Positions 21,458 to 31,834 of a stretch of DNA of 64,000 nucleotides are shown in pieces. The notes under the pieces are model-generated. The model was given only the letters and a program-made list of their open reading frames with translations, was not told the DNA's origin and searched no databases. This DNA is from Yersinia entomophaga (GTDB taxonomy: Bacteria > Pseudomonadota > Gammaproteobacteria > Enterobacterales > Enterobacteriaceae). Numbering within the stretch: position 1 is the first letter of the stretch; each line of letters starts with the position of its first letter. Where the stretch lies: positions 1,747,610-1,811,609 of the forward strand of contig NZ_CP010029.1 of assembly GCF_001656035.1 (NCBI RefSeq). Reading direction: 5' to 3'. A program made the position numbers and the translations under genes.

Positions 21458-22429
21458 TTATTCACCGATAAAACGTAAGTTCCAATTAAATACGCTGTAG
21501 TTAAACATGTAGCGTATGGCGACATACGTAATAATCAGGGTAGCGACGACAGCCTCAAAGGTAGCCAGATAATAAAGTTGGTAGCTGTAATCTTGTACTA
21601 ATTCATACTTGCTCACCAAATCCGCTAATTTATATAACGCTGTCGCACCAATTGCCATTGGGAAGGTAAACGCAGCATAACCCGGGCTAAACGGCAATTT
21701 TAGTAAACGGAAGAATGACATGTAAATTACGCAAGTCATTAATATCGCAATACCGAACAGTAATGCACATACCAGTAAAGAAGGATTTGGCACTACGGTT
21801 AAATAACCTGCCAAACTAAGGCTCGCAGGAGCAGCCATAATCGCAATGGTTGGCTTCGCTGCATCCGGAACTTCGCGGCAGAACATAAAACGATAGATCA
21901 TCAGCGGCAGCATACATGCGTAACTCAACATACCGATGACTAACAATAAATACGCAACACCCATAAAGGCCTGATTAGGCACCGCAACGTCAGCCACAAT
22001 AATCCCAACGGGCGGAACAAACCAACTCGGCACCATATGATGCATTTCTATTTCTTGGATCCGATGATAAATAAATACCGCAAGAAAAATCAGGTGCACT
22101 ACTACCGCCAGTGACCACAAGATCTCACCCGCCAACATACTCAAATTGCCCAAGGCTTTGGAAACCACCATACACCCCATGGTAAAGGTAGGAACCACGC
22201 TACCCACCACAGGATGTTTTAAATCTGATAATAAAACTCTGAAGTGAAAAATAAATTTACTGGCTACGGCAAGTAGCAGCACCGATGCGATTATCGCCCC
22301 GATATTTTGACCTAAACCGTTTAAGGGTAATGCATTTTCCAGGCACCAACCTATACTTGAAATACCCAGTGCCAGACCGGCGATAGGCGTCGGTAATCCT
22401 CTGATTTTACTATGTATAATTTCTAACAT
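21458..22429 (-). CDS. TDT-family (TehA/SLAC1-like) membrane transporter
   Basis: A very hydrophobic protein of 323 residues with about ten membrane helices and the LPTPIAGLALGISSIGW start typical of the TehA/SLAC1/Mae1 fold. Members are trimeric anion channels or C4-dicarboxylate, sulfite or tellurite-resistance transporters. The substrate cannot be told from sequence. No tehB methyltransferase is adjacent. A LysR regulator is transcribed divergently 109 bp away and probably controls it. Neither is at this place in E. coli, so both belong to the accessory segment. Confidence 0.85.
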   Translation of the reverse strand: MLEIIHSKIRGLPTPIAGLALGISSIGWCLENALPLNGLGQNIGAIIASVLLLAVASKFIFHFRVLLSDLKHPVVGSVVPTFTMGCMVVSKALGNLSMLAGEILWSLAVVVHLIFLAVFIYHRIQEIEMHHMVPSWFVPPVGIIVADVAVPNQAFMGVAYLLLVIGMLSYACMLPLMIYRFMFCREVPDAAKPTIAIMAAPASLSLAGYLTVVPNPSLLVCALLFGIAILMTCVIYMSFFRLLKLPFSPGYAAFTFPMAIGATALYKLADLVSKYELVQDYSYQLYYLATFEAVVATLIITYVAIRYMFNYSVFNWNLRFIGE

Positions 22430-22538
22430 GTTACCGCCAAAAGCATAATCTACATAAATGAATAGGGCAAATATAGATACTCACCTTTGTTTAGGATATC
22501 CTTTTTTTATTGACTTAGCGTTTAGAAGAAATAAACAA

Positions 22539-23453
22539 ATGGATATCACGTTGAAGCAATTGAAAGTTTTCCTAGCGGTAGCGCAAAGCGGCAATTTAAC
22601 GGTCGCAGCCTCCCAATTGTTTATGACGAAAGGAGCTGTCTCTCAAACCTTGGCTGAGTTAGAAAAACGTCTGGGCCAAACCCTATTCGATCGTCACCAC
22701 GCTCGTATATTTATTAATCCGGAGGGGGAAAAATTAATCTCAGTGGCTGATGAGCTGCTTTCAAGAATGAAAGACATCAATACATTATTTTCCGACAGCG
22801 CCAGCGTTCACAATTTATTTTTGGGTTGTAGTAAAACCATTGGCAGCTATATTTTGCCTGCACTTTTAGGTGAGTTTAGAAATAGCTATAACTGGTTGCC
22901 TAAAATAGCTATTGAAAACACTAACGATATTCTGAGTAAGTTACTCAAATTTGAAGTAGATTTGGCTATTCTTGAGGGAAATATCAATAATAAAGATATC
23001 TTGTCTACCCCATGGTTAACAGATGAAATGGTCGTTATCGCAACCAAAGATCACCCTCTCGCATACGAAAAATCAGTCCCGTTCTCAGTATTGAGTCAGC
23101 AGTCATGGATATTGCGTGAGCAAGGTTCGGGTAGCCGCAGTTATTTTGAAAATCATCTGGCACCATTGTTATTGCAGCCGAAGGTCATTTTATCTTTGGA
23201 TACTTTCGATTCAATTTTATTTTCTGTTCAACAAAATTTGGGAATCACCTACGCTTCCCGGCTTATCATCCAAAATCCTTTTTTTCACGACCATTTCTCA
23301 GTAATCAAAACAGAAACCCGTTTTTTCCGCTCGATAAGCCTCTGCCACCATCGACAAAAATATCTATCTAATGGTGCTCAACAGTGGATCAATTTTCTGA
23401 TTCATGCAGGTAAACGACTTGAGTTTGCACGAAATAATCAGATAGAGAATTGA
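22539..23453 (+). CDS. LysR-family transcriptional regulator
   Basis: A 304-residue protein with an N-terminal winged helix-turn-helix (MDITLKQLKVFLAVAQSGN, AASQLFMTKGAVSQTLAELE; about 1-62) and a C-terminal periplasmic-binding-like effector domain (about 90-290). The ATG at 22539 matches the family start; the frame is open back to 22458 but that extension is not LysR-like. It is divergent from the TDT transporter gene, the classic LysR layout, so it probably regulates it and itself. The effector is unknown. Coding sequence is AT-richer than the flanking core genes. Confidence 0.9.
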   Translation: MDITLKQLKVFLAVAQSGNLTVAASQLFMTKGAVSQTLAELEKRLGQTLFDRHHARIFINPEGEKLISVADELLSRMKDINTLFSDSASVHNLFLGCSKTIGSYILPALLGEFRNSYNWLPKIAIENTNDILSKLLKFEVDLAILEGNINNKDILSTPWLTDEMVVIATKDHPLAYEKSVPFSVLSQQSWILREQGSGSRSYFENHLAPLLLQPKVILSLDTFDSILFSVQQNLGITYASRLIIQNPFFHDHFSVIKTETRFFRSISLCHHRQKYLSNGAQQWINFLIHAGKRLEFARNNQIEN

Positions 23454-24091
23454 TTATTAGTTATGTCCAAAACTGGATATAAAATAGCAAAAAATATTAC
23501 CTGTATTCTCAAAATTCATAGGCCAGATAAGGGATATCCCATCTTCGGTAAGTCAGTAATATTCGAATTCTTTGGAAGATCTCGGTCAATTAGTTTGTTT
23601 ATAAAAGCAGCATAATTAATAAATCAGCAACAAAAAAATGAACCAGTAGTATCTATGGCTAAATTAATAATCTTAATCGATATTAAATTTATCTTTAAGC
23701 CAAAAAGATCGTAGAATAATCTATAGAGAACCAATGGAAAAACCTGTCAAAAAGGCGTGTTTCAAACGCTGATTTATTGCTCTTTATTGCATTAGGATTT
23801 TAGGTAACCAAATAAAAAATAATGTTTTTCTCCAAGTATTCCTCCCAATCAATCTGTGTCAGTCTACAAATCCGTAGGCCTAAAGGCAATTCGTTCATTT
23901 ACGGCTACTATTTATGGTCAGGCAGAGTAAGAAATTAAATAAACATTTTATTGGCTTGAGCCTAATCATCCTGCACTACTATTAATCAGTACGGCAGATT
24001 ATCACTATGACAGGGCATGTCTTGGCGAAATGTATCTTTTCATACAGGTTGCTGTATCCAAGATGCATATGAACTTTTCGGGGTATCTCTC
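23454..24091. other. AT-rich non-coding stretch before rpfR
   Basis: About 640 bases, roughly two-thirds A+T, with many stops in all frames and no gene that I can support. The rpfR promoter should be near the right end. A short palindrome (TATGTCCA...TGGATATA, 23463-23482) sits just after the LysR gene. The composition would suit silencing by H-NS-type proteins, which is inference only. Confidence 0.5.
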
Positions 24092-26101
24092 ATGTTCGTA
24101 GATCAAGACACATCGATCCTGGACACTTACTTTGGCACCCATAGCCCCTATTGGCGCTTGGCTTTTGATAGCCAAGCCTTGGAACTCTCCGCCGTAAAAG
24201 GCACGACCAATATTGCCGTTCCTCTTGATTCACTTCAAACAGCGAAAGTCCGCGCACTGACAGCCATTACTTCCAGCCTGGAAATCAGTATTTCTATCTA
24301 TGGCAATCCAGTTCATTTGCATCTGGTAGGACGAAAAATTAATGACAAGGAATGGGGAGGAACAGCTTCAGCATATTCAGATACTGAAGCTGTCGCGCGC
24401 GATCTGGTGATGGGATTGTCCTTTGCCGAACAAGTCGTTTCCGAAGCTAACTCGGTTATTGTCATTCTGGATAAAAATGGCTCCGTACAACGCTTTAATC
24501 GTTTGAGTGAAGAATACACTGGCAAAAAAGAACAAGACGTCATCGGTAAGAATGTTTTTGAATTATTTATGACACAGAAAGAAGGCGCATCCTCGCGTAA
24601 AAACATTGAAGGTTTTTTTAAAAGAGGTGCTTCTTATGAAGTGGAACGCTGGGTTAACACGGTAAAAGGAAAACGCCTGTTTCTTTTTCGTAATAAATTC
24701 GTGCACAGCGGCAGCGGTAAAAACGAACTTTATTTAATCTGCTCAGGTACAGATATTACTAAAGAGAGACGAGCACAGGAACGCCTGCGTGTGCTGGCGA
24801 ATACCGATATGATTACCGGTTTGCCTAACCGCCACGCTATTCATGAGCGAATCAACAGTGCGATTCAAACTCGCGGAGACGACGCCGTAGGGATTATTTA
24901 TCTTGATCTGGATAACTTCAAAAGAGTTAACGACCACTATGGCCATATGTTTGGCGATCGGCTGCTAAAAGATGTGTCACTTTCGATATTGAGCTGCTTG
25001 AAAGAAGATGAAATGCTCGCCCGTTTGGGGGGAGATGAGTTTATCGTTCTTATTGAAGATACGACGCTTTCTGCCCTCGAAAATGCCGCCCAACGTATTC
25101 TCGACCAAATGCGAGCCCCCTTCCGTATCGGATTGATTGAAGTTTATACCGGATGTTCCATTGGGATTGCGTTATGCCCACAGCATGGCGAAACGCTGGA
25201 AAATATCATCCGCAGCGCGGATACCGCGATGTACACGGCAAAAGAACTTGGCAAACGGACTTATTCTGTCTTTTCTCCGGAAATGAATAAGAAAGTGTCT
25301 GAATACATTTGGCTGGATACCAATCTGCGTAAAGGCCTGGAACAACATCAGCTTGTCGTATTTTATCAGCCAAAAATCTCAACTCGAACCGGTAAAGTCC
25401 TCAGCGTAGAAGCATTAGTTCGCTGGCGATCAACCGAGCGGGGTTTAGTTCCACCGCAAGAGTTTATCTCATATGCGGAAGAATCCGGTTTGATTGCTCC
25501 TTTGGGTCAATGGGTATTACAAACGGCTATGCAGCAAGCCGTTGACTGGCAAAAGAAAGGCATAGATTTAAGAATTGCAGTCAATGTTTCAGCCCGCCAG
25601 TTGGTGAATGAAGCGATTATTACCAGCTTTATTAAATCGCTGGAAACCTGTGAATTGACCTCCAGCTTAGTTGATGTCGAATTAACAGAAAGCTGTCTGA
25701 TTGATGATGAAAATGCAGCGATTAACATTATCAAAAAGCTCAAAGAATTGGGTGCTGAAGTCCATCTGGATGATTTTGGTACCGGCTATTCTTCACTTTC
25801 CCAGTTAGCACGTATTCCTATTGATGCAATTAAATTAGATCAGAGCTTTGTGCGCGGAATAGATAAAAATCAGGTCGCGCAGTCTTTAGTTAAGGCAATC
25901 TCCGTTGTCGCCGAAACGCTCCAAATGCGAGTTATTGCAGAAGGCGTTGAAACAATAGAGGAAGAGAATTTCCTAGATTTGTTGAGCATAGATGAAAAGC
26001 AGGGATTTCTTTATGCCAAGCCAATGCCCGCAGAAGAACTGGAGCATTGGCTGAGCAAACATACCCCGCACTTTCCAAGTAATTTAACGGGAAAAACCTA
26101 A
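24092..26101 (+). CDS. rpfR: PAS-GGDEF-EAL protein, DSF receptor RpfR (PdeR/Gmr homologue)
   Basis: Predicted cytosolic receptor for a fatty-acid signal that controls cyclic di-GMP turnover. From the ATG at 24092 (669 residues) it aligns from end to end with E. coli YciR/PdeR, including LHLVGRKIN, LSFAEQVVSEAN and VHSGSGKNE. Domains: N-terminal RpfF-interaction-like region 1-100, PAS 110-225, GGDEF 235-400 with intact GGDEF at 313-317, EAL 415-660 with EAL at 440-442 and DDFGTGYSS at 560-568. Both catalytic motifs are kept; no RxxD inhibitory site is seen before GGDEF. The frame is open to 24017, but that extension has no homology. It converges on rpfF with one base between stops. Confidence 0.92.
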   Translation: MFVDQDTSILDTYFGTHSPYWRLAFDSQALELSAVKGTTNIAVPLDSLQTAKVRALTAITSSLEISISIYGNPVHLHLVGRKINDKEWGGTASAYSDTEAVARDLVMGLSFAEQVVSEANSVIVILDKNGSVQRFNRLSEEYTGKKEQDVIGKNVFELFMTQKEGASSRKNIEGFFKRGASYEVERWVNTVKGKRLFLFRNKFVHSGSGKNELYLICSGTDITKERRAQERLRVLANTDMITGLPNRHAIHERINSAIQTRGDDAVGIIYLDLDNFKRVNDHYGHMFGDRLLKDVSLSILSCLKEDEMLARLGGDEFIVLIEDTTLSALENAAQRILDQMRAPFRIGLIEVYTGCSIGIALCPQHGETLENIIRSADTAMYTAKELGKRTYSVFSPEMNKKVSEYIWLDTNLRKGLEQHQLVVFYQPKISTRTGKVLSVEALVRWRSTERGLVPPQEFISYAEESGLIAPLGQWVLQTAMQQAVDWQKKGIDLRIAVNVSARQLVNEAIITSFIKSLETCELTSSLVDVELTESCLIDDENAAINIIKKLKELGAEVHLDDFGTGYSSLSQLARIPIDAIKLDQSFVRGIDKNQVAQSLVKAISVVAETLQMRVIAEGVETIEEENFLDLLSIDEKQGFLYAKPMPAEELEHWLSKHTPHFPSNLTGKT

Positions 26102-26102
26102 C

Positions 26103-26978
26103 CTAAATCGCTTTTGGCATGGTGGATGTACGCCGATCCTGTAGCATGACCAGGCGTTCAATATAAGCCAGATCTTTAGCTTCGATGGAGAAAACAGAGT
26201 CCACCCAATCTTCGGTTATATCCATCAATTCTGAACGCGTCAGCTGCAAAACGCGTTGGCGTGTTCGTATCATTGCGCGCATACCGTTTAATTTTGGTCG
26301 AATAGTATCAATGAAGGTGCGAGTAGCCATATAAGCATCCCCCGGCTGAAATAATTTATCCACCAATCCGCGACTTTCATACCATTCTGCCGCATGTGAT
26401 TCCCCGCTCCAGATAAGCTCCTCGGCAACACGCATACCGGCTTTTCTAGCCACCAGCGAGTATCCTCCCATGCCTGGGAACAGATTAAAGGCTATTTCCG
26501 GAAACCCCATTCGGGCAGTGGTCTGCGCTAAAACAAAGTGATGTGCCAGCGCAGCTTCAAAACCACCACCTAAAGCGCTACCTTCAATCATGGCGATTGA
26601 GATTGCTCCGGTATCAAACCCGCGGGAGGCGGAATGAACGCAATCCACGCAGGCTCTAGCGTAAGCCATTAATGTTTCACGCTTGCGGTTTTTTATCATC
26701 TGAGCAAAGAAACTTAAATCACCTCCAACATTAAACATATGTGGAACAACCGAACCTGTAACCCAGAAGTCGATAGGCAGTTTTGACTCTTTTGCTGCCT
26801 GCGCCAGTGTCATAATATTTTCAATTAACTCAAGGTTAAAACACGGACGTGGATTCGCTCGTAACAGCATCCACATGGTATTTCGCTCTTCTTCATAATA
26901 AGCAGAGACTTGCGATAGATGCCCAGCTTCGGTAAATGGGCGGCAGCTTGGGAGATTAATCATTTTCATATATTCCAT
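26103..26978 (-). CDS. rpfF: DSF-type signal synthase RpfF (crotonase fold)
   Basis: Predicted dual-function acyl-ACP dehydratase/thioesterase that makes a cis-2-unsaturated fatty acid signal. The 291-residue protein resembles Xanthomonas RpfF throughout: RPCFNLELIENI, the oxyanion hole FNVGGDLSFF, ALGGGFEAAL and GFPEIAFNLFPGMGGYS. The two catalytic glutamates fall at positions 141 and 161, the same numbers as in Xanthomonas RpfF, which sets it apart from ordinary enoyl-CoA hydratases. ATGs at residues 1, 4 and 6 are all possible; the GGA inside codon 1-2 could serve the second. It abuts rpfR tail to tail, the layout known from Burkholderia and Cronobacter. Confidence 0.9.
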   Translation of the reverse strand: MEYMKMINLPSCRPFTEAGHLSQVSAYYEEERNTMWMLLRANPRPCFNLELIENIMTLAQAAKESKLPIDFWVTGSVVPHMFNVGGDLSFFAQMIKNRKRETLMAYARACVDCVHSASRGFDTGAISIAMIEGSALGGGFEAALAHHFVLAQTTARMGFPEIAFNLFPGMGGYSLVARKAGMRVAEELIWSGESHAAEWYESRGLVDKLFQPGDAYMATRTFIDTIRPKLNGMRAMIRTRQRVLQLTRSELMDITEDWVDSVFSIEAKDLAYIERLVMLQDRRTSTMPKAI

Positions 26979-27361
26979 CCAATAAGTGATTTCAACACAG
27001 GTAAGCCTCTCGGCTAATTCAGCTTGCTTGAGGTCGATTTCCCCTCAAATAAGGCAAGCAAATAAATAGTGAGTCACTGGATGAAAAAAGGGAGGATATA
27101 TCGATATATAAAAGAATAATGGTCAGTTAGATACGACATTTAAATATAAAAACACAGTTTTAAAATCCACCCTCGGAAATTTTGTTGGCATTTTCTACAT
27201 CGCAACAGGCTTTAATCGAATTAGTTTTATACTTCTTTGGCTTGTAAATTAATCTATTCAATCTAATAAAGCCCAACATTGAGGTTATTTTTATGTGAAA
27301 GTTATAAGACATTATGGATAGAATGCTGAAATATTTTCACTTAACGTTAAATGGGCTTTGT
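26979..27361. other. Divergent intergenic region rpfF / nupC
   Basis: About 380 AT-rich bases with promoters for rpfF (left) and nupC (right). It holds a dyad (GCTTGCTTGAGG at 27022-27033 facing CCTCAA at 27043-27048 and GCAAGC at 27054-27059). A weak CRP-like half site TGTGA at 27294-27298 lies close to nupC. No gene is seen. Confidence 0.5.
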
Positions 27362-28546
27362 ATGCTGCAAATACTACATTTTCTTTTGGCTTTGATAATC
27401 ATCACGCTACTGGCCTTAGCCGCGAGCAATGATCGCAAGCAGATTCGCCTACGGTATATTCTTCAACTTTTAGCTATTGAAATTGCCTTTGCCTACTTTT
27501 TACTGCATTCCGACATTGGGCTTGGCGCGATTCAACACTTCGCTGGTTTCTTTGAAACGTTGATGAAATTTGCCGCAATTGGTACCAGCTTCGTATTTGG
27601 TAATATGAACGAACAAGGTCTCGCGTTTATATTTCTCAATGTTTTATGCCCGATTGTTTTTGTTTCAGCTTTAATAGGAATATTGCAACATTTCCGGATC
27701 TTGCCTTGGGTAATTCGCGGTATAGGTACGGTGCTTTCAAAAGTAAACGGTATGGGAAAGCTTGAATCTTTCAATGCTGTGAGCACCTTGGTTCTCGGCC
27801 AATCAGAAAACTTTATCGTCTATAAAGGCGTGATTGCCGATATTTCTCAGCGCCGTATGTATACGCTCGCCGCTACGGCCATGTCGACTGTTTCGATGTC
27901 AATCGTCAGCGCATATATGACAATGTTAGAGCCGAAGTTTGTTGTGGCAGCCTTAATACTCAACATGTTCAGCACATTCATTGTTCTTTCCATTATCAAC
28001 CCTTACCCAACGGGCGATGAGCCTGAGATAAAATTAAATAAGCTACATGATGATCAAAGTTTCTTTGAGATGTTAGGGGAATACATCCTGGCTGGATTTA
28101 AAATCGCCATTATCATCGCCGCAATGCTGATTGGTTTTATTGCGCTAATCGCCGCTATTAATGCTTTGTTTACCAGCATATTTAGCGTTAGCTTCCAGGA
28201 GATTCTCGGCTATGTATTCTACCCCCTTGCCTGGCTAATAGGTATTCCAGCGCCGGATGCGCTAAAGGCAGGCAGTATTATGGCGACCAAATTAGTGTCT
28301 AACGAATTCGTTGCCATGATCGAGCTTAAAAAAATAGCGATTGATATGTCCCCGCGTGGCCTAGGCATTCTATCGGTGTTTCTGGTCTCTTTTGCTAACT
28401 TTGCCTCAATCGGCATTATCGCCGGCGCGATTAAAGGGTTGAATGAAAAACAGGGCAATGTGGTTTCCCGTTTCGGGCTGAAGCTAGTTTATGGCTCTAC
28501 ATTGGTTAGTTTATTATCAGCAACAATCGCTGGTTTAGTGCTTTGA
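27362..28546 (+). CDS. nupC: Nucleoside:proton symporter NupC
   Basis: A concentrative nucleoside transporter of the inner membrane. From the ATG at 27362 it has 394 residues and matches E. coli NupC over its length, including [21 protein letters not shown] helices, [18 protein letters not shown] and [12 protein letters not shown], motifs that shape the nucleoside site. The frame is open from an ATG at 27314, adding 16 residues ([12 protein letters not shown]), but neither start has a strong ribosome site; the shorter one agrees with the family. It sits alone to the right of rpfF in the accessory segment. Confidence 0.93.

Positions 28547-30085: not shown

Positions 30086-31834
<1,749 letters not shown>

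Follow-up and report, generated by a model that had tools for sequence, protein, structure and literature searches.

Within the 64,000-nucleotide stretch of the Yersinia entomophaga genome analysed here (the window) lies a pair of convergent genes, rpfR and rpfF, which very probably constitutes a working diffusible signal factor (DSF) system of the Burkholderia/Cronobacter kind, with RpfF as the putative signal synthase and RpfR as its putative receptor. An rpfF-rpfR pair has been noted before in Yersinia by bioinformatics (PMC4504480, PMC4698668), and RpfF homologues on their own are also on record for the genus (PMC12838280). The pair in Yersinia is an already known kind of system and its presence is expected. 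The new element is a comparison of receptors with and without a partner synthase, which serves to test, by evolutionary means, two claims from structure, namely that the RpfF-interaction (FI) domain of RpfR binds RpfF and that its PAS domain reads DSF.

RpfF and RpfR of the window

RpfF affiliates with the crotonase superfamily. Its best sequence matches in the PDB are the solved RpfF chains of Burkholderia (6dgn, 440 bits; 5fus, 438 bits), followed by 3m6m, also an RpfF (156 bits), and 7zq7, a "crotonase/enoyl-CoA hydratase family protein" (155 bits), with all other chains at or below 57.2 bits. The protein passes the NCBIfam model PRK08788 (407 bits, cut-off 177), which carries the general label "crotonase/enoyl-CoA hydratase family", and fails the curated hydratase models, the best specific one being PRK07659 (69.6 bits, cut-off 311). 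The RpfF signatures GGGFEAAL and GFPEIAFNLFPGMG and the glutamates at positions 141 and 161, all named in a preliminary description of the locus, are present. The two glutamates, which lie in GGGFE and FPE motifs, correspond to the catalytic positions of Xanthomonas RpfF. A tree of 77 sequences was calculated from the window protein, 39 of 80 named loci (the best 80 of 318 relatives), 23 loci from a sample of the family and 14 outside crotonases. The 63 RpfR-partnered sequences separated from the outside crotonases at 100/100 support, the latter being long-branched according to a program warning. The window RpfF grouped with other Yersinia at 100/100, and the nine Yersinia sequences formed one clade next to Serratia (95/88). 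The preliminary description had proposed such a tree as a check; the expected grouping with RpfF was seen, and the contrary outcome, clustering with metabolic hydratases, did not occur. Residues F47 and F91, the counterparts of two phenylalanines that shift upon FI binding (PMC6361424), are kept in all 63 RpfR-partnered sequences and in 12 and 14, respectively, of the 14 outside sequences.

RpfR affiliates with the NCBIfam family PRK10060 (1154.6 bits, cut-off 782), a match that, like that of RpfF to 6dgn, goes beyond chance. It retains five contact residues for cis-2-dodecenoic acid (BDSF), S168, N171, Y182, R186 and N201, as well as intact GGDEF and EAL motifs. The protein had been described as PAS-GGDEF-EAL. 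Those domains are indeed present, but an N-terminal FI domain had been overlooked, which is recognizable both by sequence and by predicted fold and completes the layout FI-PAS-GGDEF-EAL (PMC6361424). In a structure predicted for residues 1–225, the best matches of the FI and PAS folds by structural alignment were solved RpfR domains. With these profile and PDB matches, the FI domain and the RpfF tree, the claim of a complete RpfF/RpfR-type DSF pair was upheld. RpfR is one among several cyclic di-GMP (c-di-GMP) enzymes of the genome, because nine places encoding an EAL domain were found, rpfR included.

The open reading frame (ORF) that contains rpfR spans 24017–26101 on the plus strand and would encode 694 residues from an upstream ATG at 24017. 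The start at 24092 was preferred because an in-frame stop lies at most 26 codons before this methionine in 11 of 23 RpfR loci of the genus, and because the NCBIfam family profile begins at residue 26 of the longer frame. For rpfF, the start at 26969 (Met4) is likelier than 26978, since RpfF alignments begin at residue 4 in 11 of the 12 named Yersinia loci and from residue 1 only in Y. nurmii. The rpfR start, the positions of both frames and their tail-to-tail meeting had all been given correctly beforehand: the TAA stop of rpfR (26099–26101) is followed by one base and then by the TAG stop of rpfF. Both frames are open in the window, and both genes are under purifying selection, with ratios of nonsynonymous to synonymous substitution rates (dN/dS) against Y. 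nurmii of 0.11 for rpfF and 0.05 for rpfR.

Some results weigh against a working DSF pair. RpfF is not filed under the equivalog NF053515 (diffusible signal factor synthase RpfF), reaching 184 bits at a cut-off of 550, a comparison made for the window protein and not for the RpfF of Burkholderia or Cronobacter. The FI-PAS model was predicted with moderate confidence (mean predicted local distance difference test score 72.7, predicted template modelling score 0.58). Before and between the genes, promoter-like sites numbered 7 (9.3 expected in shuffles) and terminator-like sites 4 (3.5 expected); real promoters and terminators there were rejected because these numbers are about those of shuffled sequence. 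In the Y. entomophaga papers that were searched by term, neither "rpf" nor "diffusible" was found.

The shortfall at NF053515 would also suit a metabolic enoyl-CoA hydratase, or a plain thioesterase of acyl groups bound to acyl carrier protein (ACP), standing by chance beside a c-di-GMP phosphodiesterase. So would membership in the crotonase family and the two glutamates, which fit RpfF but do not diagnose it because the 14 outside crotonases carry both too. We nonetheless regard such a chance neighbour as very unlikely, given that the top PDB matches are RpfF, that the RpfR-partnered clade is fully split from the outside sequences, and that every rpfF-bearing genome of the family sample also has RpfR, tail to tail.

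Table 1 Features of the rpfR-rpfF locus (positions in the window)
Feature	Position	Strand	Description
rpfR (pdeR/yciR family)	24092..26101	+	669 aa FI-PAS-GGDEF-EAL c-di-GMP enzyme, predicted DSF receptor; PRK10060, Pfam PAS/GGDEF/EAL
FI (RpfF-interaction) domain of rpfR	24092..24376	+	residues 1-95
PAS (BDSF-binding, predicted) domain of rpfR	24431..24760	+	residues 114-223; holds S168, N171, Y182, R186, N201
GGDEF domain of rpfR	24797..25255	+	motif GGDEF intact, residue 313; Pfam PF00990, 152 bits
EAL domain of rpfR	25322..26023	+	motif EAL intact, residue 440; Pfam PF00563, 222.6 bits
rpfF, predicted DSF synthase, crotonase superfamily	26103..26978	-	291 aa; 288 aa from likelier start 26969
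Glu141 codon of rpfF	26556..26558	-	predicted catalytic; conserved in 63/63 RpfR-partnered and 14/14 outside rows
Glu161 codon of rpfF	26496..26498	-	predicted catalytic; conserved in 63/63 RpfR-partnered and 14/14 outside rows

Receptors with and without a partner synthase

In all 80 named loci rpfR lies tail to tail after rpfF. The family sample comprised 198 genomes, searched at E 1e-40 for RpfF and E 1e-150 for RpfR. RpfF was found in 45 and RpfR in 62, and 136 had neither at these thresholds; the RpfR search, like both searches of the class sample below, scored no more than the first 3 to 6 candidates of each genome, so that misses are possible. All 45 rpfF-bearing genomes also carry RpfR, always tail to tail; the matches are 110 bases or less apart in 40 of them (widest, 1,725), and 17 of the 62 RpfR genomes are receptor-only. 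The earlier statement that most enterobacteria keep only the receptor found no support, since 45 of the 62 receptor-bearing genomes also have rpfF. Its example, E. coli, was supported: pdeR-like DNA (60–80% DNA identity) occurs in 5372 of 5426 genomes and rpfF in none of the 5426 by blastn at E 1e-5, a DNA search being less sensitive than a protein search. Within the genus, 23 of 25 Yersinia genomes matched RpfF (one split in two frames) and 23 of 25 matched RpfR (one partial). In a class sample of 368 other genomes, RpfF-like proteins of 30–41% identity were found in 67 at E 1e-25 and RpfR in none at E 1e-150; this sample lacked close RpfF and is hence uninformative about Burkholderia.

Decay is seen in single relatives, rpfF being split in one Yersinia genome (G201; L132/L133) and rpfR near residue 401 in Y. 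massiliensis (L015, among the named loci). For the two Yersinia genomes that matched neither gene (G203 and G217), gene loss was not concluded; for G203 only part of the stretch could be read, and in G217 the expected site falls at contig ends, adjoining an insertion-sequence-like ORF (named by eye).

Receptors were classed as receptor-only when their genome had no RpfF at E 1e-40, and a usable RpfR came from 16 of the 17 such genomes. In an unrooted tree of 63 RpfR sequences (47 paired, 16 receptor-only), the receptor-only proteins were confined to one side, together with Pantoea and paired family members. The paired or receptor-only state needs six changes on this tree, at least three of them forced by well-supported branches. 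We infer that the changes were losses of rpfF and not gains, the tree being unrooted.

The two groups differ in evolutionary rate. Branch lengths were calculated for FI (residues 1–95), PAS (114–225) and the catalytic half (236–644) on a topology from the catalytic half alone, using 70 sequences (53 paired, 17 receptor-only), among them E. coli PdeR and six further Yersinia proteins as additions. The FI/catalytic ratio of paired branches was 1.11 overall and 1.40 for those on the tree side of the receptor-only proteins; in Yersinia it was 1.03, whereas it reached 3.47 on receptor-only branches and lay between 2.23 and 5.79 in each of the eight receptor-only lineages, including that of E. coli. 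For PAS/catalytic the values were 0.37, 0.34 and 0.44 versus 1.07 (0.66–2.43 by lineage). An earlier run on a whole-protein topology gave FI ratios of 1.17 for paired and 3.70 for receptor-only branches. Among branches longer than 0.02, FI/catalytic was at least 2.2 in 16 of 19 receptor-only versus 5 of 68 paired ones. The difference between receptor-only and same-side paired branches (Mann-Whitney, p = 0.0002) is to be read with the non-independence of branches of one tree, the origin of all receptor-only sequences on one tree side and the shortness of FI in mind. Yersinia RpfR shows the paired-type constraint on both FI and PAS, which lends indirect support to a binding and restraining of RpfF by FI. 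The ratios suggest that these sensing parts drift where rpfF is absent, as in E. coli.

Single residues of the PAS domain were compared in the 63-sequence set. All 47 paired proteins have S168 and N171, as do 12 and 11, respectively, of the 16 receptor-only ones. Y182 and N201 are invariant, and R186 is lost to leucine in one receptor-only protein (L227). E. coli PdeR (L247, 3832–5817) likewise has leucine at this BDSF-contact position, within an ungapped stretch, while all 47 paired receptors have arginine.

In the FI domain, D26, S27 and A29 occur in all 53 paired proteins versus 9, 9 and 2 of 17 receptor-only proteins, and G71 in 51 of 53 versus 4 of 17. In the predicted model, the beta1-beta2 loop holds residues 26–27 and the beta4-beta5 loop residue 71, and beta2 begins at residue 29. 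The reported RpfF interface buries the beta4-beta5 loop of FI and has the beta2-beta3 loop in contact (PMC6361424), so that the position of G71 agrees with it. The overall fit is mixed: in paired and receptor-only proteins alike the beta2-beta3 loop is highly variable, the passage of PMC6361424 on the interface does not mention the beta1-beta2 loop, and several FI elements are equally or more conserved in receptor-only than in paired proteins. Two receptor-only proteins on short branches (L222 and L223) keep most FI columns and carry K and H in place of N171 of PAS, as though change in the ligand pocket came before change in the FI domain.

An evenly balanced possibility is that FI and PAS are set free where rpfF is lacking, while the catalytic half stays fixed. 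Receptor-only PdeR proteins, that of E. coli included, would then be former quorum receptors that have changed their ligand or become ligand-independent trigger enzymes, and not DSF eavesdroppers, whereas Yersinia would keep a closed circuit in addition to the autoinducer (AI) types AI-1, AI-2 and AI-3 tested in Y. entomophaga. The comparison predicts that E. coli PdeR has lost the ability to read BDSF. The literature searched, which covered few subscription papers and included available portions of PMC6335245, PMC12838280, PMC6361424 and PMC9684580, yielded no report on the fate of FI in receptor-only proteins.

Genomic address and neighbouring genes

The pair had also been placed in a core-genome neighbourhood. 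This is true within Yersinia, where yicG and ligB adjoin it in all 12 named loci, a nupC-like gene lies near it in 10, and in 4 the retrieved stretch also includes yicC. It does not extend to the other 68 named loci, in which no neighbour gene from this window was found and other genera show other neighbours. In one representative each, these are yhjD and spy (Serratia, L016), bglX (Rahnella, L040; Chimaeribacter, L053), araD and a cstA-like gene (Pantoea, L079) and treA (Paraburkholderia, L032), the cstA and PRK13272 treA models being matched below their cut-offs. A match to rnb was found in 11 of 26 paired loci of the family, for which only 1.5 kb of flank was available, versus 16 of 17 receptor-only loci; in E. 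coli, rnb and yciT flank pdeR, and three small annotated genes lie in the interval as well. The two genes of the pair therefore remain side by side at changing addresses, and receptor-only proteins are encoded where some of their paired cousins are.

The nearest named RpfF is that of Y. nurmii (97% identity; the search may have excluded records of the window's own genome), and the Y. entomophaga type strain is reported as 93.8% identical to Y. nurmii (PMC4885058). The window RpfF is up to 77% identical to Paraburkholderia and likewise to Rahnella. These equal identities suggested horizontal transfer between Burkholderiales and enterobacteria, which was not retained: in the outside-rooted RpfF tree, Burkholderiales, Yersinia with Serratia, and the other enterobacteria form an open three-way split that leaves the direction undecided. 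The midpoint-rooted RpfR tree places Burkholderiales with Yersinia, Serratia and Rahnella and, lacking an outgroup, is not readable as transfer.

Recent acquisition of the pair, or its decay into a relic in this genome, is extremely improbable. In favour of such a history, the G+C content of the pair (rpfR 0.44, rpfF 0.47) and that of the neighbouring TDT, LysR and nupC-like genes (0.39–0.43) is lower than that of rph (0.54) and yicC (0.50), the left flank varies among Yersinia species, and split genes occur in the two relatives named above. The matches to each gene in nearly all Yersinia genomes, the single Yersinia clade of RpfF beside Serratia, the open frames and the low dN/dS argue against it.

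Left of rpfR (21458–23453), the window encodes a TDT/SLAC1-type transporter and a divergent YeiE-like LysR regulator (G+C 0.43 and 0.39); a close relative of the regulator (at least 79% identity) occurs in only 3 of the 25 Yersinia genomes, the window's included. The NupC-type nucleoside transporter at 27314–28546 is a second copy, 72% identical to the other copy elsewhere in the genome, and 5 of the 25 genomes show only that other copy. LigB (30086–31831) is just 51–54% identical to its counterparts in 11 of the 12 named Yersinia loci and 92% to that of Y. nurmii, unlike its neighbour yicG (93–95%).

Proposed circuit and comparison with known systems

By analogy with relatives, RpfF would dehydrate 3-hydroxyacyl-ACP to cis-2 acyl-ACP and then cleave it, freeing a cis-2 fatty acid that is most likely BDSF, as RpfF has been reported to make BDSF from an ACP-bound substrate (PMC12838280). 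BDSF would bind the PAS domain of RpfR, raise its phosphodiesterase activity and lower c-di-GMP, and the FI domain would bind RpfF and restrain synthesis. Both effects are described for B. cenocepacia and C. turicensis (PMC6361424), and a later paper reports both synthesis and breakdown of c-di-GMP by RpfR in vitro (PMC9684580). An intact pair could also be chiefly a device of lipid homeostasis, in which FI adjusts the cleavage of acyl-ACP by RpfF and PAS senses free fatty acids of the same cell, with cells signalling little to one another. FI has been proposed to limit wasteful acyl-ACP cleavage, and RpfR PAS also bound saturated C12:0 (PMC6361424). We consider this improbable, though somewhat less so than the other alternatives, because in B. 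cenocepacia BDSF accumulates extracellularly and receptor-site mutants show raised c-di-GMP (PMC6361424), and the Cronobacter pair controls colony form, biofilm and swarming (PMC4698668). For a signalling pair in Y. entomophaga, it matters that the quorum-sensing deletions reported in this species concern the AI-1, AI-2 and AI-3 synthases (PMC10847048) and leave the RpfF/RpfR circuit untouched.

With the RpfF-RpfC-RpfG system of Xanthomonas, the window shares the RpfF family and its signature residues, as the match to 3m6m shows. Xanthomonas, however, uses a different type of receptor (PMC4504480), and only the RpfR route was seen at the window locus, no search for RpfC or RpfG having been made in the genome. 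E. coli PdeR/YciR (gmr) is a related FI-PAS-GGDEF-EAL protein, described as a trigger enzyme acting on YdaM (PMC9684580), but E. coli differs in having no rpfF match, a drifted FI and leucine at BDSF-contact position 186. Compared with RpfR of C. turicensis (PMC4698668; PDB 6dga, 6dgg), the FI domain is 48–49% identical and the PAS domain 73–74% by structural alignment. From RpfF-Bc and RpfR of B. cenocepacia (BCAM0581/BCAM0580; PDB 5fus, 6dgn), the window pair is set apart by the single base between its stops and its Yersinia-specific address. It nevertheless shares with them the same two families, the FI-PAS-GGDEF-EAL layout, the BDSF contacts and the phenylalanine pair of RpfF, and its convergent arrangement is that of Burkholderia (PMC4504480).

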